Assembly (NCBI GenBank): GCA_030430205.1
Contig: JAUIGE010000008.1
Coordinates: 1-64,000 of the forward strand
DNA: 64,000 nt
From: Bacteroidia bacterium
GTDB lineage: Bacteria > Bacteroidota > Bacteroidia > J057
Direction: 5' to 3'
Positions 36,155-64,000 of the stretch are shown here, piece after piece; the first letter of the stretch is position 1, and every line of letters begins with the position of its first letter. Below the pieces are notes generated by a model, which saw nothing but the letters and a program-made list of their open reading frames with translations, was not told the DNA's origin and did no database searches. The position numbers and the translations under genes were made by a program.

Positions 36155-36223
36155 ACTTGGATGGAGTTGGAAAATGGACTTATTTATAAAAGAGTTCAAT
36201 ACAGGACAATTTTTCAGGAAAGT

Positions 36224-36427
36224 CCCCCAAAGTCCCGAAGGGACGCCATATTCAGCATGGGGCGAAGCCCCATGAAGGTGAACGACTCCCATAGAAGTCC
36301 TGAAAGGACGACATATCTTAAAACGCCATACCCAATATATCGCCCTTTCAGGGCTTTAATGCCTGGTCTTAATCGAAGGATCGGGCTTTGCCCGATCGTA
36401 GTATATAGCGTCCCTTCAGGACTTTGA
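36224..36427. repeat. 204-bp multi-hairpin intergenic element, copy A
   Basis: Six short stem-loops follow one another: GTCCCGAAGGGAC, ATGGGGCGAAGCCCCAT, GTCCTGAAAGGAC, GCCCTTTCAGGGC, GATCGGGCTTTGCCCGATC and a final GTCCCTTCAGGAC. The same order and length recur at 56081-56284 and 56478-56681, with some base changes in copy A. Short ORFs across it are artefacts. Confidence 0.85.
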
Positions 36428-36702
36428 GGATGTTTATAATTCATGACTTTCATTTTTTGTCCTGTACTAAGATAAAAGAGATAATTTTTCATTCCTTCCA
36501 CAATTTTCAGCTTTTCGGCTCAATGCCTGAAATAATTTGAAGGAAATATTCACCCGAAGGGAGATGTGCCTTGGGGATTTCTTCAATTGTGGACTGATTG
36601 GGAGAAAACAGGAATTGCTTTTGGCACCTCCCCCAATCCACATGCTGTGGAAATCTCCCCGGCATCTTAGGGAAAATCAGGCTAACTTTATATCCTAAAG
36701 AA

Positions 36703-52156: not shown

Positions 52157-53272
52157 TTATTTTATTCTGACAAAATTCGCTCCTTCTGCTTTAAACCACA
52201 ACAGCAGGTCCCACTCCTCATAGTACCAACGCTCATATCGCGTTCCGTTTTTTACTAGTTCGCGCCGAATAGGTTTACCATAAAACAAATAAGCCTTCGC
52301 GCGATCGCTTTGCCAAACCGGCAGGCTATCATCAAAAAGGGAATCTGCCTCCAGCAGCTTTTCATAATAGGTCGCCATTTTCTCAGAAATATTATCACCG
52401 GCATACTGCTGCCACCAGGCCTCAAAGGCATTTCGCTTGGCTCCCGCATCCGGGAGAGCCAGCAGCCTGTGGATATCTTCTTGCGAAGCAATAGGCGTCA
52501 GCATCTGGATAGCTTCGTCTATCTGTGCCATCAGGGCCTCATGGCCCTGCCAGTCCAGGGAGAAGCGTACGCTTCTTTCCCGCAGCAACTGGTCATCTTC
52601 AAAAATGAAGATTTCCAGCAAATAATTCCCTGAAGACAAGCCTTTTAGCAATAATTCGCCCTCAAAAATAGCCTTTCCTTCAGCCAGGGTCAGCACCTTG
52701 TTTTCTTGCTGAATGGAGGTAAAAACCGTGGCCTTTGCCTCAAATCCCTGCTGCCGCTCCCGGTATAGCACCGCCCGCGCGGTTAGCAGTTGATGGCGCC
52801 TGCTGAGCAATTCACAATGAAAAAAAAGCTGGCCGCTATTTGCGCCTATACGGCTGAGGTGAAAGGCTTTGGGGCCGATTTTCGGAAAGGCAAAGGTGGA
52901 GAGATATACATCCGATAAAAAGGGATCCTGTTTTTTGTCCATGCACTCAAAGGGAAGTTCGAGGGATGGCAAGTCAGAATCATTGAAGTGCACTTCCAGT
53001 TGGTACTTCCCCGCCGGGAGCTGGTAGTTTTTCAATAGAGGCAGGGCCTGCCCGGGATAACATACAAATTGGTCCTGCAATTTATAGCCCGGCTGGCCAT
53101 CGGCCCGGAAGCCCAGATGGATGCTGGTGGCATGCCGCAGTTTTTCCTGGGGGAAAAAGAATACCTGGCTATTGTATGCCGAGGAGGCGCAATTGCGGGC
53201 TTCTACCTGCCACTGAGCCTGCATGTTTTGGGAAAAAATAAGAGCTGATATGGCTATCAATACCCACTTCAT
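52157..53272 (-). CDS. GWxTD domain secreted protein
   Basis: 371 residues. The signal peptide ends at NMQAQ (~19). The first ~230 residues are beta-rich. The last ~120 form a GWxTD-type domain: AKRNAFEAWWQQYAGDNIS, ATYYEKLLEADSLFDDSLPVWQSDRAKAYLFYGKP, RYERWYYEEWDLLLWF. The naming motif GWxTDRG is worn to VWQSDRA. GWxTD proteins are secreted Bacteroidota/Acidobacteria proteins of unknown role. It is 4 bp after rimO, in one operon with DUF445 and bshC. Confidence 0.78.
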   Translation of the reverse strand: MKWVLIAISALIFSQNMQAQWQVEARNCASSAYNSQVFFFPQEKLRHATSIHLGFRADGQPGYKLQDQFVCYPGQALPLLKNYQLPAGKYQLEVHFNDSDLPSLELPFECMDKKQDPFLSDVYLSTFAFPKIGPKAFHLSRIGANSGQLFFHCELLSRRHQLLTARAVLYRERQQGFEAKATVFTSIQQENKVLTLAEGKAIFEGELLLKGLSSGNYLLEIFIFEDDQLLRERSVRFSLDWQGHEALMAQIDEAIQMLTPIASQEDIHRLLALPDAGAKRNAFEAWWQQYAGDNISEKMATYYEKLLEADSLFDDSLPVWQSDRAKAYLFYGKPIRRELVKNGTRYERWYYEEWDLLLWFKAEGANFVRIK

Positions 53273-53276
53273 GCTG

Positions 53277-54605
53277 CTATTTTGCGATTTCTCCTATCAA
53301 ATCATACTCCATCGCATCGGTGATTTTTACGGTATAAAAATGTCCGATCTTCAAAGGAGCTTCAGCGTGGATGATCACTTCATTGTCTACTTCGGGTGAG
53401 TCGGCCTCCGTGCGGCCATAATAAACGCCCATATCTTCCCGGTCAACCATGACCTTCAGTTTTTTGCCGATTTTCTGTCGGTTGATTTCCAGGGAAATCC
53501 CTGCCTGCAACTCCATGATATCATCATGTCTGCGTTGCTTTACTTCCTCGGGGATGGTATCCTCGAAGCTATTGCCCGCATGGGTATTGTCTTCATGGGA
53601 GTAGGTAAAGACGCCCAGGCGGTCGATCTGAAAGTCTTCAATAAATTTCAGGAGTTCCTGATGGTCTTCTTCCGTTTCGCCGGGATGCCCCACCAGCAGG
53701 GTCGTACGAAGGGTGATGCCCGGCACCTCCTCGCGGATTTTGCTGACCAGCTCCACCGTCCGTTGGTGGTTGATGCCGCGGCGCATGGCCGTGAGGACAT
53801 TGTCGGAGATATGTTGGAGCGGAATATCGAGGTAATTGCAGATGTTGTCGCGCTCGCGCATGATCGCCAATATCTCCGTCGGGAAACCCGACGGATAGGC
53901 GTAATGGAGGCGAATCCATTCGAGCCCTTTGACATCCGCCAAAGCGTTGAGCAAATCAGCCAGGCGGCGCTTGCCGTAGATGTCAATCCCGTAGTAGGTC
54001 AGGTCCTGAGCGATCAGCATGATTTCCTTCACGCCCCTGGAAACCAGGTATTTGGCCTCCTCCACGAGGAATTCAATGGTCCGGCTTTGGTGCTTGCCCC
54101 GCATGAGCGGGATGGCGCAGAAGCTGCAGGGACGATTGCAGCCTTCTGCAATCTTGAGGTAGGCATAATGACCGTCATCGGTCAGCACGCGCTCTCCAAG
54201 CAATTCTTTTTTATAATCCACGCCCAGCTCGGTGAGCAGATCAGGCAGGTCTGTGGTACCAAACCAGGCATCCACCTCAGGGATTTCCAGCATCAAATCG
54301 TCTTTGTAGCGATGCGACAGGCAGCCTGTCACGATCACTTTTTCGACTTCTCCCCGCTCCTTGCGCCCGACGTAGTCGAGGATGGTATTGATGGATTCTT
54401 CTTTGGCTTTATCGATAAAGCCGCAGGTATTGATGACGACGACATTGGCGTCGCTGTTGTTTTCTTCGTGCACGGCCTTCACCTTATTTCCCTGCAATTG
54501 GGAAAGCAGGACCTCGGAGTCTACGAGGTTTTTGGAGCAGCCCAAAGTGATGACGTTGATCTTATCTTTTGCCCTGCTTTTGGCTTTATATGGGTTCGTT
54601 TGCAT
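53277..54605 (-). CDS. rimO: ribosomal protein S12 methylthiotransferase RimO
   Basis: 442 residues. It is a radical-SAM enzyme that adds a methylthio group to the conserved Asp of ribosomal protein S12. The UPF0004 domain has cluster cysteines C23, C61 and C95; the radical-SAM motif is C156-x3-C160-x2-C163 (CNRPCSFC); AQDLTYYGIDIYG and a C-terminal TRAM domain are present. The length is normal. It heads the minus-strand operon rimO / GWxTD / DUF445 / bshC. Confidence 0.94.
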   Translation of the reverse strand: MQTNPYKAKSRAKDKINVITLGCSKNLVDSEVLLSQLQGNKVKAVHEENNSDANVVVINTCGFIDKAKEESINTILDYVGRKERGEVEKVIVTGCLSHRYKDDLMLEIPEVDAWFGTTDLPDLLTELGVDYKKELLGERVLTDDGHYAYLKIAEGCNRPCSFCAIPLMRGKHQSRTIEFLVEEAKYLVSRGVKEIMLIAQDLTYYGIDIYGKRRLADLLNALADVKGLEWIRLHYAYPSGFPTEILAIMRERDNICNYLDIPLQHISDNVLTAMRRGINHQRTVELVSKIREEVPGITLRTTLLVGHPGETEEDHQELLKFIEDFQIDRLGVFTYSHEDNTHAGNSFEDTIPEEVKQRRHDDIMELQAGISLEINRQKIGKKLKVMVDREDMGVYYGRTEADSPEVDNEVIIHAEAPLKIGHFYTVKITDAMEYDLIGEIAK

Positions 54606-55806: not shown

Positions 55807-56080
55807 TAATTACTCCTTTTTGGGGCAAAAAAGCTAATATAAATGGTCAAATATAGCCGTATTCGGCTTTTCCTGATTTCCTGGGAAAGGATGGACAGGA
55901 TAACAGGATTTACAGGAAAAATCAGGGCTTTCTGATAGAACCATGTAGGGCATGGAAGTTCATATAAGATCGCAGTTTTTGGGTGCATAGCTGAATCCCA
56001 TACATCGCATGGCGATTTTCAATACTGTTCGGGATTAGGGAAATCCCGAACAGCGGGAAATCCCGAACAGCGGGGAGGTT

Positions 56081-56284
56081 CCCCCAAAGTCCCGAAGGGA
56101 CGTCATATTCAGCATGGGGCGAAGCCCCATGAAGGTAAACGCCCCCAATAGAAGTCCTGAAAGGACGGCATACCTTAGGAAGCCATAGCTAATATATCGC
56201 CCTTTCAGGGCTTTAAGCCCTGGTGTGAGTCGAATGATCGGGCTTTGCCCGATCGTGGCGTATAGCGTCCCTTTGGGACTTTGA
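56081..56284. repeat. 204-bp multi-hairpin element, copy B
   Basis: Same order of six small stem-loops as copy A at 36224-36427, with AGGGACG and GGGCGAAGCCCC at matching places. It differs from copy A mainly in loops and linkers, with compensating changes such as GTCCCTTTGGGAC instead of GTCCCTTCAGGAC. Confidence 0.85.
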
Positions 56285-56294
56285 TCACTCACAA

Positions 56295-56965
56295 GCTGTT
56301 CGGGACTTCCCTTGTCCCGAACTTCAGAGTCCAGGACTCCTCCCAGCCTGCGTTATTACTGCCCAATGGCAGTTTTTGGGTGCATAGCTGAATCCCATAC
56401 ATCGCATGGCGATTTTCAATACTGTTCGGGATTAGGGAAATCCCGAACAGCGGGAAATCCCGAACAGCGGGGAGGTTCCCCCAAAGTCCCGAAGGGACGT
56501 CATATTCAGCATGGGGCGAAGCCCCATGAAGGTAAACGCCCCCAATAGAAGTCCTGAAAGGACGGCATACCTTAGGAAGCCATAGCTAATATATCGCCCT
56601 TTCAGGGCTTTAAGCCCTGGTGTGAGTCGAATGATCGGGCTTTGCCCGATCGTGGCGTATAGCGTCCCTTTGGGACTTTGATCACTTTTTAAAAAATTCA
56701 AAAACAACTTTGAAAAATACTTGTTTTTCAACTTTACCTTTTGCGGATAATGTAAAGACTTGACTATTATTTTTATTAACTAACTTAATGTCTCCTTCAG
56801 GACACAATAGTGTACCTTTTCCAACATGAAATTCCCTATCAAACCCCAACTTTGAATTTAAGCAGCTACCCCTGCTGTTCGGGACTTCCCTTGTCCCGAA
56901 CTTCAGAGTCCAGGACTCCTCCCAGCCTGCGTTATTACTGCCCAATGGCAGTTTTTGGGTGCATA
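56295..56965. repeat. 92-bp direct repeat pair
   Basis: 56295-56386 and 56874-56965 (offset 579 bp) share GTTCGGGACTTCCC..GTCCCGAAC, a 9-bp perfect hairpin, followed by a stretch ending in TTTTTGGGTGCATA. The tail of the first copy is also the head of the 397-bp duplication unit, so the blocks overlap like a nested mosaic. Confidence 0.75.
56478..56681. repeat. 204-bp multi-hairpin element, copy C
   Basis: Exact partner of copy B through the 397-bp duplication (offset 397 bp). Confidence 0.85.
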
Positions 56966-57023
56966 AATGACCTACACCGAGCAAAACATCCTTCATCATA
57001 AAAATCAGTGTGATCTGCGTCAA
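56682..57023 (-). pseudogene. possible gene remnant inside the repeat block
   Basis: A 113-codon frame. Its N-terminal half is translated repeat sequence. The last ~60 codons (56682-56873: GFDREFHVGKGTLLCPEGDIKL, FTLSAKGKVEKQVFF, FEFFKK) are AT-rich, unlike the repeats, and look protein-like. It may be the cut-off C-terminus of an older gene stranded between repeat copies, or chance. No family recognised. Confidence 0.3.
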
Positions 57024-57736: not shown

Positions 57737-58711
57737 TTATTCGCCAAAAAGCGAACCTATAAACTCCGCAGGTTCAAATACCTGCAAATCGTCCATCCCC
57801 TCCCCTACGCCTATATAGCGTACGGGTGTTTTGAATTCGCTGGAGACGCCAATCACAACCCCGCCTTTGGCGGTGCCGTCAAGCTTTGTCAGGGCCAAAG
57901 AAGTCACCTGCGTGGCTTCGGTGAAGGCCTTCGCCTGCTGAAAGGCGTTTTGCCCCGTGGAGGCATCCAACACCAATAATACGTCATGGGGCGCTCCTTC
58001 GAGCACTTTGCCGATGCTGCGCTTGATTTTGCCCAGCTCATTCATCAGGTTCACTTTGTTGTGCAGGCGGCCTGCGGTATCTATCAGGATAACGTCAGCC
58101 CCCATTTCAACTCCCTTTTTGACGGTGTCAAATGCAACTGCGCTGGGGTCTACATTCATCCCTTTATCCAGGATTTCGACGCCTACGCGATCAGCCCAGC
58201 GCCTGAGCTGCTCTACGGCCGCAGCGCGGAAGGTGTCTCCTGCTCCCAGCAGGACTTTGTTGCCATTTTGCTTGAAGCGATAAGCGAGCTTACCGATGGT
58301 CGTGGTTTTGCCTACGCCATTGACGCCTACAACCATGATGACATAGGGCATTTTTTTGCCGCCTGCTTCGATCCGGGGTATTTGGAAAGCCTCCCGGTCA
58401 TTTTCGGGATAATTTTCGAGCATCAGCTCGAGGATCTCACTGCGTAGCAGGTGGTTGAGTTCTTTTTCCCCTGTATATTTTTCGCGGGCGGCCCGCTCTT
58501 CGATACGCTCAATGATGCGCAAAGTAGTGCTTACGCCCACATCACTGGTGATGAGCACTTCTTCGAGTTCATCCAATACCTCGTCATCGACTTTGCTTTT
58601 GCCGACAATCGCCCGGCCGAGCTTGGCAAACAGGCTTGTCTTGGTTTTTTCGAGGCCTTTATCCAGCTTTTCTTTATTTTCCTTTTTTCGGAAAAAATCT
58701 TTGAGTCCCAT
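57737..58711 (-). CDS. ftsY: signal recognition particle receptor FtsY
   Basis: 324 residues from the ATG at 58711 (GLKDFFRKKENKEKLDKG); the TTG seven codons upstream is unneeded. It docks SRP-ribosome complexes at the membrane. The N domain is at ~20-100, then the GTPase G domain: GVNGVGKTTTIGKLA (G1), DTFRAAAVEQL (G2), IDTAGRLHNKVNLM (G3), TKLDGTAKGG (G4) and a C-terminal GVGEGMDDLQVF. It lacks the long acidic A domain of E. coli FtsY, as usual in this phylum. A perfect -7 box TATATTTG lies upstream. Confidence 0.95.
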   Translation of the reverse strand: MGLKDFFRKKENKEKLDKGLEKTKTSLFAKLGRAIVGKSKVDDEVLDELEEVLITSDVGVSTTLRIIERIEERAAREKYTGEKELNHLLRSEILELMLENYPENDREAFQIPRIEAGGKKMPYVIMVVGVNGVGKTTTIGKLAYRFKQNGNKVLLGAGDTFRAAAVEQLRRWADRVGVEILDKGMNVDPSAVAFDTVKKGVEMGADVILIDTAGRLHNKVNLMNELGKIKRSIGKVLEGAPHDVLLVLDASTGQNAFQQAKAFTEATQVTSLALTKLDGTAKGGVVIGVSSEFKTPVRYIGVGEGMDDLQVFEPAEFIGSLFGE

Positions 58712-58729
58712 AGTTTTTTTATGAAGGCG

Positions 58730-58737
58730 CAAATATA
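58730..58737 (-). promoter_or_regulatory. -7 box TATATTTG of ftsY
   Basis: On the minus strand TATATTTG exactly fits TAnnTTTG and is 18 bp before the ftsY ATG at 58711. No strong TTTG at -33 was found. Confidence 0.45.
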
Positions 58738-58803: not shown

Positions 58804-59217
58804 ATGAAAAGAAAAGCAACAGCCGTATGGCTTGGAAGCGGTAAAGAAGGCTCTGGCCATTTGAGCACACAAAGCACCGTTTTGGATCAAACACAGTATT
58901 CCTACCTGTCCCGCTTTGAGGAAGGAGTGGGCACCAATCCTGAAGAATTGATCGGTGCAGCCCATGCAGGCTGCTTCAACATGAAGCTGAGTTTTGTTTT
59001 GGGAGCAGCAGGCTTTACGCCTACTTCTTTGGAAACGGTATGTACCATTACCCTGAAGCCGGAAGGCATCACCCAGTCTCACCTTGCCCTGACAGCTCAG
59101 GTGGAAGGTATAAATGACGAACAGTTTGCCGCAGCGGTAAAAGATGCTGAGGAAAACTGTCCTATTTCAAAATTATTTGATACCGAAATTGTTGTTGAGT
59201 ACACACTCAACGCTTAA
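58804..59217 (+). CDS. OsmC-family peroxidase
   Basis: 137 residues, normal OsmC length. It is a cytosolic thiol peroxidase that reduces organic hydroperoxides. The redox pair is C57 in HAGCFNM and C119 in ENCPISK; R37 in SRFEEG is the usual activating Arg. It belongs to the OsmC rather than Ohr branch as judged by the AAHAGCF context. Divergent from ftsY (92 bp apart); its 3' end meets the beta-lactamase gene at 1 bp (convergent). Confidence 0.92.
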   Translation: MKRKATAVWLGSGKEGSGHLSTQSTVLDQTQYSYLSRFEEGVGTNPEELIGAAHAGCFNMKLSFVLGAAGFTPTSLETVCTITLKPEGITQSHLALTAQVEGINDEQFAAAVKDAEENCPISKLFDTEIVVEYTLNA

Positions 59218-59218
59218 G

Positions 59219-60037
59219 CTACAAAATACCTTCAGCCCGTAAAATCTGTCTGCTGACAGATTTGCGGGCATTGGCATCTTCGCTGGTATAGGTATCGATA
59301 TTCATGGCGAAAAAATATACTTTTTCCCCTTTTTCAACATAACCCACCCACCAGCCGGTTCCCGGCTCCTGACGGACAGCCCAACCCGTTTTTGCCCGCA
59401 AAATATAGGTGTCCGTTTCTTCATTGATCATGCTTTCCTTTACGCCATCCATGCTTTTGGGAGAAAATGGCAGCTCATCGTGGTAGAGTCTCTGGAGAAA
59501 AGCTATTTGCTCCAAAGCGGTCATCCGCAAGCCTCCCTGCAACCAAAACAGGTCTATCCCTCCGCTGATATCGCGGTTACCATAGCCGACCCTGTCGATA
59601 TAGGCCTGCATCGTATCCTGCCCGATCCTCCGGGCCATCTCCTGGTAAAACCAGACCGCGGAGTACATCATCCCTGTGCGGATATTCTGATCCTGGTTCC
59701 AGAATGGATATGCGCGCTCCACGCTGTCCCACGGAAAAAAAGTGTCTATATCGGGCATTTGCCCGGTTTCCAGCATGACCAGCGAATTGAAAATCTTAAA
59801 AGTTGAGGCAGGCAAATAGCCTGTTTGTGCTCGGGGAAGGTTCCATACCTGTATTTCCTCGCTTCCTTCTTCCTGAAGCACAAAGGTTCCCTGAACCCTG
59901 GCCTCCTCAAAAAAAATCCCCCAATCGGATTTTTCAATCCATTGGGGGTTGGTATTTTTTTCCTGCCCGCAGGCTGGGATGATAAGGAGCAGCACCAGGC
60001 AAAAAAGGCAGAGGTGAAAATTTGGTTTTGAATTCAT
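59219..60037 (-). CDS. class D (OXA-type) beta-lactamase, lipoprotein
   Basis: 272 residues. The signal ends in a lipobox IPACG (C23), so it is probably membrane-anchored, unlike most soluble OXA enzymes. All class D motifs are present: S78-T-F-K81 (acylated Ser and the Lys that becomes carbamylated), S126-A-V128, Y152-G-N154 and K216-T-G218, then GWWVGYVE. It should hydrolyse beta-lactams by an acyl-enzyme route; the spectrum is not predictable. It lies 15 bp after the giant CHU protein gene on the same strand and may be read from its transcript. No mobile element, integron or resistance gene adjoins it, so it looks like a resident chromosomal gene. Confidence 0.93.
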   Translation of the reverse strand: MNSKPNFHLCLFCLVLLLIIPACGQEKNTNPQWIEKSDWGIFFEEARVQGTFVLQEEGSEEIQVWNLPRAQTGYLPASTFKIFNSLVMLETGQMPDIDTFFPWDSVERAYPFWNQDQNIRTGMMYSAVWFYQEMARRIGQDTMQAYIDRVGYGNRDISGGIDLFWLQGGLRMTALEQIAFLQRLYHDELPFSPKSMDGVKESMINEETDTYILRAKTGWAVRQEPGTGWWVGYVEKGEKVYFFAMNIDTYTSEDANARKSVSRQILRAEGIL

Positions 60038-60052
60038 GCTTATTTTCCTTTT

Positions 60053-63000
60053 CTACCGAAAAACAGTAATCGTTCCCGTTTTGGGATACTTCAAATTATT
60101 TTCTCCTATACCTTCGATCACATAGACATACACGCCTTCCGGCACTTGCTGCCCTTTGTAGGTGCCATCCCAACGGAAGTCTTTGTCATCTGATTCATAA
60201 ATCACCATACCCCAACGGCTGAATATCTTCACATTCAACTCTTTAATCCCATAATATCCGACATAAAACTGGTCATTGAAATTGTCATTATTGGGGGTAA
60301 AAGCGGAGGGGACATGCAGGGCTACATTTTCCAATAAAATACTGGCAAAAGCTGTATCGGGGCATCCGGTGGCACTATATACGATCAAACGGATCGGCCA
60401 TTGTCCCGCATGCGGGAAGGTGTATTGGGGGTTTTCGTCTTCATTGACGGCAGCGCCCGTACCAAAATCCCACAGGTATTTCACTGCATTCTGAGATAGA
60501 TTGATGAACTGAACAGGCTCTGGAGCCCATCCTGCATCCGGTTCCATCATAAAAGCAGCTGTAGGATAGTCGAAGTTCACATCCACGGTGATAGAATCGG
60601 GTTTGCCTTCGCACAAGCCAATAAAGGCTGTTACATAGTAAATGGTCGGTGCGACAGGCGTCACGCCTATGGTGCGATTGGTATCGCCTGTGCTCCATAC
60701 GATCCGCTGACCGCCTGTGGCGGTCAATTCAATCTGTCCGCCCACGCAGAGATAGTTCTCTCCGTCAATCTCCACCTCCGGTGGATCTACCAGGTCAATC
60801 GCTACAGTGGTGTCATTGACACAGCCGTTTTCGTCCGTTCCGGTGACGATGTAAAGGGAAGGGATATCTGGCGAAGCAATGGGGTTGGAAATATCCAAAG
60901 CCGATAGGGTCGGATCGGGTAGCCAGCGATAGCTGACTGCCCCTCTTGCATACAGCTCTATGCTGTCTCCAAAGCAGATAACCGTTTGAGGCCCTGCCTC
61001 TATGGTCGGAAGCGGATCTACCCATACCAGCACAGAGTCTGTCTCTGTGCAATAATTGGAGTCTGTTACAGAAACGTAGTAATACTGCGTCTGACGAGGG
61101 AAAACCACAGGGTCCACCCGCGTGCTGTCATCTATATTGCTGTTGGGAAACCAACGGTAGAGGAAGCCTCCGCTTGCCCTGAGTTGGGTTTCATTCCCGA
61201 TACAGATGGAATCGGGCAGGCCTGCATCCGCCGGTGGCGGATCGTCCACCTCTACCTTGACCCCTTTTTCTGAGATACAGCCATCCGAACTGACAGCCCG
61301 GACAATATACAAGGTATCCAGGCGAGGCCAAATACTGGGACTGATCACATTGGGATCACTCATATTGTAATTGGGCCGCCAGCTAAAACTCACCCCATTA
61401 TTGGTTTTCATCTGGATGGTATCCCCCAGACAGATAGAGGTATCTTCCAGGGTATACACTTCGAAAACCTCTATCCGTACCGAATCCTTTTCCAGGCATC
61501 CCCGGGCATTCACCGCAGTAATGATGTAAGTGGTAGTGGTATCTGGCGTCGCTATGGTCACCAGCGAATTGGGGTTTGTAACCGCATGTGCAGGCTCCCA
61601 GCTATGTATGACGCCATTGGTAGTACTGGCGTAGAGCTTTGCGGTAACGCCTTCACAGACGATGGTATCTGGCCGGGGAAATATCTCCAGGCTCCGGTCA
61701 ATGCTTACCTGCATGGTGTCAACCGCTTTACAACCGTTGGTATCTGTGCCTGTAACGAGGTAGTTGAAATCGCTTTTCGGATATACCGTAGCGGTGGCAT
61801 TGTTTCTCCCTGTGATATTGGAATTGGGACTCCATTGGAAATTGACAATCGTAGGATCGCCTGTACCGGTGATAGAGACGCTATCTCCCAGGCAAATTAT
61901 TTGATCCAGCCCAGCATCCACCTCCGGCTCTGCAAAGACAAGGATATTTGCATAAGTCGTATCGCGGATGTTGCAGGAAGCAGAGTCTTCGATGATCAAT
62001 TGAACCAAATACAGACCAGAATCCTGGTATACATGAGAAGGTTCAAAACCTACCACATTGACTCCATCCCCCCAATTCCAATAGTAAGTGGTCTGAGGGG
62101 TGGCCTTTGAGGTATTGTCAATATTGACCAAAAGTGGCGGACAGCCTTTAAATTCCAGGGTATCTCCAAATCTATCCAAAGGCGTAAATTCCGCCTTGAT
62201 GCCCGCCAGGTCGAAGGCGACCTTAAAGGCAGCCAGGTTACAGTTTTGGCTGTTGTTGGTGTTGCTGTGGACGCCCGGCGTCGTGGGGAAGGTGGAGACG
62301 CCTCCACAACCCGCACAAACTGCGTGGTAAACGATGCCCTCCCGGTCAAAGCGGCATGTGCCGCCATCTACATGCTCTCCTGAACCCAGCAGGTTATTGC
62401 CTCCCAGATAGGTGGCGTAGAGCAAATTACGCGCATCGCGCTCCAGCACAATCATGTAAAAGTCGCTCCCATCCGTGGAGCGCTGGATAGCGGTGTTAGG
62501 TGGGCCGGTGGTGGGCATATTGCGGGTGTTGCCGCCATAGTTGGTTGTACCGCCCCATCCGGCAACATAGACGTTGTCGCATCTGTCAACCAAAAATGCA
62601 GTAGGGGAAATATTCGGCGCGGAAGCTGTACCGGAGCCGAAAACAGTCGAATAAATAAAATTAGATAGACTGTTGTCCAGTTTGGCAATAAACTGCCGGG
62701 AACCGGGATTGGAATAGACATTTCCGTTGATTGGGAAATTGCCCATAGTCTGACCGGTTACATAAATATTGTAATCATCATCTATTTCCAGAAAATAGGA
62801 TTGGTCTATGGCATTGGTCCCTATAAAAGTAGACCGTATCAGGCTATTTCCGGAAGCGCTTATTTTCGCGATAAAACCATCTGCTGCGCCCCCCCGGTAG
62901 GTAGAAAAAAGCGCATTTCCAGAAACAGGAAAGTTGGAACTTTCTGTTCCACCTGTTACAAAAACATTGTAATTGTTATCCAGCTTCATGCCATAGGCAG

Positions 63001-64000
63001 CATCATTTCCTGAGCCTCCCAGATAGGTGGAAAAAACCAATGAGGTAAGATTGGAATTCAGTTTGGCGACGATGGCATCCTGTAGCCCACCTTTGGTCCG
63101 CTGATAAGCAGTAGGTGTGGTGGGAAAGTTGGTAGAGCGGGTACAAGCCGCTATATAACAATTGCTTTGATCATCCAGGATGATCTCTCCGCGGGCGTCA
63201 TCGCCATAATTGGCCTGCAGGGCTATGGGAGTCTGGCCACTTTGGAAATAGTTGCCATTTTCTCCATCGCTGTCACTTCCCCCCAAATAGGTGGAGCCTA
63301 ACAATTGCGTACCAGCTGCATTAAATTTTGAAACGAAAATATCAAAACGCCCCCCATTATAAGTTCTGTCATAACCATTGCTTGAGACGGGGAAGTTGAT
63401 GGAGCTTGTTCGTCCATAGACGTAGAGTTCGTCATTGCCATTGACAAAAAGACTTTGAGGCTGGTCCATATCCGAACCTCCTAAATAGGTCGAATAGACC
63501 AACCGGGTACCATCAGGCGAAAATTTGGAGATGGTACATTCCGTACTTCCGCCACCATAAATGGTCTGGAAGGAACCCGGTATGGTCGGAAAGGTAGTCA
63601 CTCCCCCTCCCGAGGCAAAAATGATTCCCCCGCCATAGAGACTTCCGGCCTTATCGTATGTGGCCGTAAACCCCCAGTTATCAGCCAAAGAACCTGTATA
63701 GGTTGAGAATACCAGGGTGGGGTCGATCACCAATTCATATTGGGTGTCATAGCCTTGAGGAAAATGAAAGGAGACTTTGTTTCCATTCAATACATATTCA
63801 CAGGCAATTTGCTGTGTTACTCCTTCTATTTCCTGGTATACCACAGGAGCTTCCTCCACAATATCCCTCACAGAGGTTTTTATGTGTAAGCTTCCTTCTT
63901 TCAAATAAATCAACTCAGCTCCTGTGTATTGAAGCTCAATCTGAGCGGGATCGCCCCCCGCTGCCACGATCAAATCGTATTTGAAATTTTCTCCGGAGCC
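60053..64000 (-). CDS. giant multidomain surface protein with CHU/gliding-motility C-terminal domain (partial)
   Basis: At least 1315 residues; the frame stays open to the window edge, so the N-terminus is missing. The first visible part (YDLIVAAGGDPAQIELQYTGAE ... YELVIDPTLVFSTY) is the DUF7948-like module seen before SBBP propellers. Repeats of STYLGGSDMDQPQSLFV type (~95-560) form a propeller. Next is a PKD domain (WNWGDGVNVVGFEPSHVYQDSG, ~640-710), then a long set of Ig-like repeats each with AGPDQ/CLGDSV-type cores, a second PKD-like unit (YLWDFGTG), and the T9SS type B sorting domain HVPSAFTPNNDNFNDQFYV ... KTGTITVFR. It would be exported by the type IX system and displayed on the surface, probably in adhesion or gliding. 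Confidence 0.9.
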   Translation of the reverse strand, partial: GSGENFKYDLIVAAGGDPAQIELQYTGAELIYLKEGSLHIKTSVRDIVEEAPVVYQEIEGVTQQIACEYVLNGNKVSFHFPQGYDTQYELVIDPTLVFSTYTGSLADNWGFTATYDKAGSLYGGGIIFASGGGVTTFPTIPGSFQTIYGGGSTECTISKFSPDGTRLVYSTYLGGSDMDQPQSLFVNGNDELYVYGRTSSINFPVSSNGYDRTYNGGRFDIFVSKFNAAGTQLLGSTYLGGSDSDGENGNYFQSGQTPIALQANYGDDARGEIILDDQSNCYIAACTRSTNFPTTPTAYQRTKGGLQDAIVAKLNSNLTSLVFSTYLGGSGNDAAYGMKLDNNYNVFVTGGTESSNFPVSGNALFSTYRGGAADGFIAKISASGNSLIRSTFIGTNAIDQSYFLEIDDDYNIYVTGQTMGNFPINGNVYSNPGSRQFIAKLDNSLSNFIYSTVFGSGTASAPNISPTAFLVDRCDNVYVAGWGGTTNYGGNTRNMPTTGPPNTAIQRSTDGSDFYMIVLERDARNLLYATYLGGNNLLGSGEHVDGGTCRFDREGIVYHAVCAGCGGVSTFPTTPGVHSNTNNSQNCNLAAFKVAFDLAGIKAEFTPLDRFGDTLEFKGCPPLLVNIDNTSKATPQTTYYWNWGDGVNVVGFEPSHVYQDSGLYLVQLIIEDSASCNIRDTTYANILVFAEPEVDAGLDQIICLGDSVSITGTGDPTIVNFQWSPNSNITGRNNATATVYPKSDFNYLVTGTDTNGCKAVDTMQVSIDRSLEIFPRPDTIVCEGVTAKLYASTTNGVIHSWEPAHAVTNPNSLVTIATPDTTTTYIITAVNARGCLEKDSVRIEVFEVYTLEDTSICLGDTIQMKTNNGVSFSWRPNYNMSDPNVISPSIWPRLDTLYIVRAVSSDGCISEKGVKVEVDDPPPADAGLPDSICIGNETQLRASGGFLYRWFPNSNIDDSTRVDPVVFPRQTQYYYVSVTDSNYCTETDSVLVWVDPLPTIEAGPQTVICFGDSIELYARGAVSYRWLPDPTLSALDISNPIASPDIPSLYIVTGTDENGCVNDTTVAIDLVDPPEVEIDGENYLCVGGQIELTATGGQRIVWSTGDTNRTIGVTPVAPTIYYVTAFIGLCEGKPDSITVDVNFDYPTAAFMMEPDAGWAPEPVQFINLSQNAVKYLWDFGTGAAVNEDENPQYTFPHAGQWPIRLIVYSATGCPDTAFASILLENVALHVPSAFTPNNDNFNDQFYVGYYGIKELNVKIFSRWGMVIYESDDKDFRWDGTYKGQQVPEGVYVYVIEGIGENNLKYPKTGTITVFR

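Follow-up and report, generated by a model that had tools for sequence, protein, structure and literature searches.

The gene at 59219..60037 on the minus strand of the window—the whole stretch of 64,000 nucleotides of Bacteroidia DNA that was analyzed—very probably encodes a lipid-anchored class D serine beta-lactamase, a reading made from its sequence. The product is a class D (OXA-type) homologue of 272 aa with a lipoprotein-type signal peptide, identified by the family model NF012161, its motifs, and a match to OXA-48. It is most likely a periplasm-facing outer-membrane lipoprotein that would destroy beta-lactams. The gene is an ordinary one: genes of this type are widespread in related bacteria, and a lipid anchor has been described before in clinical OXA enzymes. 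Nothing that the literature searches brought up describes this gene. The first-pass annotation had called it a lipidated class D beta-lactamase on the chromosome of a Bacteroidota, which fits, as a prediction, with the family model, the motifs, the lipobox, the CHU_C/T9SS neighbor, and the housekeeping context; from the sequence, the phylum is read from the T9SS domains.

Class D identity and the sensor alternative

The list of open reading frames confirms coordinates and strand, with an intact frame of 272 codons. The protein scores 276.8 bits with the NCBI equivalog model for class D enzymes (NF012161), above its cut-off of 250, and the E-value of 1.2e-82 excludes a chance match. Its sole Pfam match is the Transpeptidase domain (PF00905, 139.6 bits). 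The class D motif set consists of S-X-X-K, S-X-V, Y-G-N, a Trp in the omega loop, and K-T-G; all are present and intact as S78TFK81, S126AV128, Y152GN, F164W165, and K216TG, just as had been read at first pass. At E ≤ 0.001, the protein matches 136 distinct Protein Data Bank chains, and the names among the 60 listed include beta-lactamase, OXA-48, OXA-10, and oxacillinase. Top-ranked are 6nlw, OXA-48 (3hbr), and 6nhs, the first and third of which bear only the name Beta-lactamase. Membership in a named OXA family was tried as well and rejected, with no "exception" (family-specific) model at its cut-off among 25 of 68 listed.

The fold is common to the sensor BlaR1, and the protein might be a penicillin-binding or sensor-type homologue—a BlaR1-like domain or a pseudo-enzyme—that is acylated by beta-lactams, turns them over very slowly, and serves signaling or has no useful role in resistance. 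This is an unlikely reading, though it survives better than the other alternatives. With the BlaR1 model NF000326, the query reaches 195.5 of the 400 bits required, and the match covers only the C-terminal model positions 347-584; the N-terminal sensor half that this model demands is absent from the 272 aa. In addition, V128 stands where BlaR1 of Staphylococcus aureus has Asn (SAVW versus SVNW), and the class D equivalog model is passed. A BlaR-type sensor, named at first pass as the outcome that would overturn the enzyme reading, is thus rejected by its model score and its domain layout, whereas the tree does not decide the matter. An approximately unbiased (AU) test with query and BlaR1 on one side of a branch gives p = 0.359 and so does not reject that grouping; the value comes from a tree with a single long-branched BlaR1 and from a pair chosen after seeing it. 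Pseudo-enzymes of the family also exist in print, according to the excerpted text of PMC9045261. Against the sensor reading, BlaR1 exceeds the cut-off in none of 119 genomes of the class, a search that is without a positive control because the 14 control genomes gave none either, and the 13 neighboring proteins scanned, four of them without any match, include no recognized blaI-type product. One match of the BlaR1 search (G049) spans positions 236-583 and carries six in-frame stops. Two other genes of the query's genome, G000:C60:7765-8454 and G000:C10:5361-5996, match the N-terminal half of BlaR1 (117 and 86 bits) and are devoid of the beta-lactam sensor half.

Signal peptide, predicted location, and predicted function

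Residues 1-23, encoded by 59969..60037 on the minus strand, feature a signal peptide as judged by the sequence and by hand-made lipobox rules. By eye and by rule, the N-terminus MNSKPNFHLCLFCLVLLLIIPAC contains an n-region, a hydrophobic region, and a lipobox Cys. The lipobox reads IPA-C with Cys23 as the +1 residue, in agreement with the first-pass reading; Pro at −2 is not the commonest residue at that position. Two rules were applied to the relatives, both of them rough. The first accepts 32 of 73 rows, the query included, of which at least two are likely false (L044 and an OXA from a wastewater plasmid). The second, stricter on the hydrophobic stretch and tolerant of odd residues at −3, accepts the query, 21 of 35 class relatives, four of the 26 remaining rows from the phylum search, and one of the ten references. 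The figure of 21 of 35 is probably an undercount, since the second rule missed OXA-24 and OXA-58.

The surprise implied at first pass over a lipobox on such an enzyme is unjustified. OXA-23, OXA-24, and OXA-58 carry lipoboxes in the alignment as well; lipidation of OXA-58 has been proven with [3H]palmitate, and its lipobox Cys is important for high levels in the cell (PMC12691667, excerpted text). A 2022 survey predicts lipoprotein signals for 22% of class D homologues and names them mainly for Acinetobacter and Leptospira (PMC9045261, excerpted text). As to the side of the membrane, the excerpt of PMC5080379 gives K-(D/E)2 or Q-A-(D/E)2 just after the +1 Cys as minimal surface-export signals. 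The residues GQEKN that follow Cys23 fit neither, which makes a periplasm-facing anchor likelier than a surface position; the test is a weak one, as the signals were defined in other Bacteroidota families.

Class D enzymes work by acylation of a Ser and deacylation by a carboxylated Lys. Here, a beta-lactam would acylate Ser78, and a carboxylated Lys81 would act as general base and drive hydrolysis of the acyl-enzyme. The Lys81 residue is present, and its carboxylation is predicted from the family. Such hydrolysis would protect the cell from beta-lactams of competing microbes. The substrate range cannot be predicted from sequence. Published activities of comparable proteins, as far as the excerpted text of PMC9045261 reports them, differ: of ten class D homologues taken from clusters that lack a described enzyme, seven hydrolyzed at least nitrocefin in crude extracts, and two of these seven hydrolyzed imipenem and three nitrocefin only. 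The other three gave no active enzyme, one of them having mutated active-site lysines. With three of ten inactive and three of seven confined to nitrocefin in that text, weak or no resistance is possible for the query too.

Genomic neighborhood and the nearby repeat

The upstream neighbor at 60053..64000 on the minus strand is a large SBBP/PKD/Ig-like protein with a T9SS type B (CHU_C) sorting domain (PF13585, PF18911, DUF7948, TIGR04131) whose start lies 501 bp past the window. In full, it has 1482 aa and occupies 60053-64501 of the contig (L009 54-4502). The part inside the window holds the DUF7948, SBBP, PKD, and Ig-like domains, and the TIGR04131 sorting domain scores 52.9 bits against a cut-off of 35. 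This gene ends 15 bp upstream of the OXA gene on the same strand, and the gene beyond it is divergent (L009 4654, plus strand), so that the OXA gene is the second and last in a two-gene minus-strand unit—second after a giant T9SS protein, as had been noticed at first pass. The two genes are probably transcribed together, given their spacing. The Bacteroidota-type promoter pattern, TTG-N17-21-TAnnTTTG, is absent from the minus strand of 59001-64000, which says little.

The short gap on a common strand suggests that the enzyme might work with the giant, being displayed at the surface, where it would act on, or together with, a cell-surface protein or an envelope layer. This is improbable. The giant finds no match in eight homologous stretches from seven genomes (7 to 20 kb each; L081 and L083 are cut by contig ends), so the link with the OXA gene is not conserved, and a conserved operon is unsupported in these stretches. 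The misfit of GQEKN to the export signals (PMC5080379, excerpted text) also argues against surface display, within the weakness of that test. In G067, another genome of the class, the OXA homologue (L080 8879-9697) directly follows a T9SS type A gene (L080 6942-8897), which would speak for a partnership; that neighbor is a different protein, an M1-like peptidase with a Por_Secre_tail domain, and the adjacency is taken as coincidence. The upstream neighbor in a genome of the same genus (G001) has a Spond_N match below the Pfam cut-off; these two upstream proteins, of G067 and G001, are the ones covered by the Pfam check of neighbors in homologous stretches. Overall, the partnership of the OXA gene with the giant looks incidental. 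Equally improbable is a broader reading, in which this Bacteroidota family has kept a lipid-anchored class D lineage by vertical descent and the enzyme, co-transcribed with a surface protein of the T9SS, serves envelope or cell-surface competition—periplasm- or vesicle-borne—and not resistance of the clinical type.

The downstream side is occupied by an OsmC family peroxiredoxin at 58804..59217 on the plus strand (TIGR03562, 164.4 bits, cut-off 85.8), which is convergent, lies 1 bp from the OXA stop, and stands outside the unit. It is followed by two housekeeping genes: ftsY for the SRP receptor at 57737..58732 on the minus strand (TIGR00064, 343.7 bits, cut-off 260.7) and, at 53277..54605 on the minus strand, a radical SAM methylthiotransferase (PF00919, PF04055, TRAM_2), which we take from its domains to be rimO-like. 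The presence of ftsY, rimO, and smpB nearby and the length of the contig (198 kb) point to the chromosome, and a chromosomal location is likely. For comparison, the excerpted 2022 survey puts about 70% of class D genes on chromosomes, with a transposase gene close to only 5.6% of these (PMC9045261). The claim that no mobile element lies nearby holds for transposases, with no such domain in the 13 neighboring proteins scanned with Pfam (4 of 13 without any match), and needs a caveat for a duplicated MITE-like repeat 2.2 kb downstream.

This interspersed, strongly hairpinned repeat at 55969-56970 is MITE-like and is more curious than the OXA gene. It consists of copies of a 300-nt unit at 55969 and 56366 and of a 97-nt unit at 56295 and 56874. 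A further copy lies at 36223-36427, with its right end at 36457-36468. The core has 58 matches in the genome, some places being counted on both strands and 40 of 73 candidates being scored; six are at contig ends. Other copies are framed by the 12-bp inverted repeat AGTACAGGACAA, which occurs 55 times in the genome against 0 for a reversed control. Both ends are exact at 17 places, of which 12 are 271-272 bp, three 260 bp, and two 198-199 bp long. In the alignment, the two copies beside the OXA gene are without these ends. Among the exact matches, AGTACAGGACAA forms no facing pair at the wide spacing that would suggest a parent element. Both copies contain a match to the Rfam family Acido-Lenti-1 RNA (RF01687) at 56088-56131 and 56485-56528 on the minus strand (38.3 bits, cut-off 37). 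With 115 candidates scored per genome, this family has at least 53 matches in the query's genome, 43 of them overlapping places of the repeat core, and at least 68 in G002 of the same family; the same-genus G001 has none, and 6 of 40 genomes searched, the query's own included, have a match. In this genome at least, Acido-Lenti-1 may be part of a MITE-like element and not an independent RNA.

That the OXA gene is a recently acquired resistance gene brought by a mobile element is the least probable reading and very unlikely: the nearby duplicated repeat and the patchy presence in the family (7 of 13 genomes) would fit it, but ftsY and osmC separate the repeat from the gene and the repeat sits in dozens of places genome-wide, the stretch 59400-60199 (800 bp, including most of the gene) has a G+C of 0.476, within the local range of 0.417-0.535, none of 4731 matching plasmid records reaches 60% identity, and a homologue stands in the same neighborhood of a same-genus genome.

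Relatives, phylogeny, and known systems

The query's own genome holds a single copy. With that genome counted each time, a homologue is present in 7 of the 13 genomes of the family (one of them a weak fragment) and in 8 of the 22 of the order (two of them weak). In the class, 61 of the 395 genomes sampled have one at E up to 1e-10; in the phylum, the family model finds one in 80 of 296 genomes, and 44 of these pass its cut-off. On plasmids, the best of the matching records is OXA-48 at 44-45% identity. A single-protein scan of genome contigs, which reaches close relatives only, gives one relative, in Opitutia (38%).

The same-genus homologue in G001 passes the class D model at 289 bits and is 45-50% identical to the query. 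It has ftsY and rimO within approximately 8 kb, at distances of about 5 kb and 6 kb, respectively, and a homologue of the gene at 52157-53272 (28% identity) adjoins rimO there; relative to ftsY, the OXA homologue has the reverse orientation. Its placement indicates that the OXA gene, or a relative of it, has probably been in this neighborhood for some time. The orthology of the two is not proven: ftsY and rimO are about 80% identical between the genomes against 45-50% for the OXA pair, and the pairing in the tree is weak (60/81).

The tree comprises 74 rows: the query, six family rows, L011, 26 further class rows, 29 rows of the phylum search (three of them of the class), ten plasmid references, and PDB 6nhs. 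L007 and L010 were dropped as too short or weak and L049 as identical to the query, and the loci of the BlaR1 search (L094-L103) were left out. The class search gave 63 places, of which 33 have no locus there and 29 of these are outside the tree; the phylum search gave 81 places, 51 without a locus, three of them present in the tree via the class search. The ultrafast bootstrap had not settled (0.983), and the backbone is without resolution. One supported branch (95/94) splits the query, OXA-48, OXA-10, OXA-2, OXA-23/24/58, and other rows from OXA-1, OXA-9, and BlaR1; OXA-9 and BlaR1 have long branches, and their placement is unsure. The nearest row to the query by path is the G001 homologue (L002). 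A pair of query and OXA-48 alone scores worse in the AU test (p-AU 0.023) and is thus disfavored against the expectation from the best hit; both AU p-values are loose, as the pairs were chosen after seeing the tree. Nothing in the tree places the query as ancestral, and the first-pass description of an ancestral lineage is unsupported.

The gene adds a predicted enzyme to a reservoir known from published surveys. Its main value is as a further example from a part of the Bacteroidota in which lipid-anchored class D enzymes are common by the hand-made rule (21 of 35 class relatives). If proved a carbapenemase, it would be a distant OXA-48 relative outside the known clinical hosts.

Among known systems, the BlaR1 sensor domain of Staphylococcus shares the fold, Ser-X-X-Lys, YGN, and KTG with the query at 25.7% identity and differs by SVN in place of SAV and by the N-terminal half before model position 347. 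The G001 homologue (L002, L076) has a signal peptide that closes with ISC, a lipobox made unusual by the Gln at −3, and its 20-kb stretch gives no match to the T9SS giant or osmC. PDB 6nhs, the third best solved match, aligns over nearly the full length (E 3.5e-68) and has the stretches KIFNSLV and VWFYQ in common with the query; its position in the tree is without resolution. OXA-58, OXA-23, and OXA-24 of Acinetobacter are class D enzymes with a lipobox like the query, are 33-38% identical to it, and form a separate starred clade. The closest named plasmid-borne relative is OXA-48, a class D carbapenemase for which the excerpt of PMC12282331 calls Shewanella the progenitor. It is approximately 44% identical over 93% of the query; the query scores 235.5 bits with its family model, far short of the cut-off of 580 (NF000387). 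Both have the same loop length from KTG to GWW with an Arg at the same place (KTGWAVRQEPGTGWW versus KTGYSTRIEPKIGWW), an Arg common to several other rows, and OXA-48, unlike the query, carries no lipobox.
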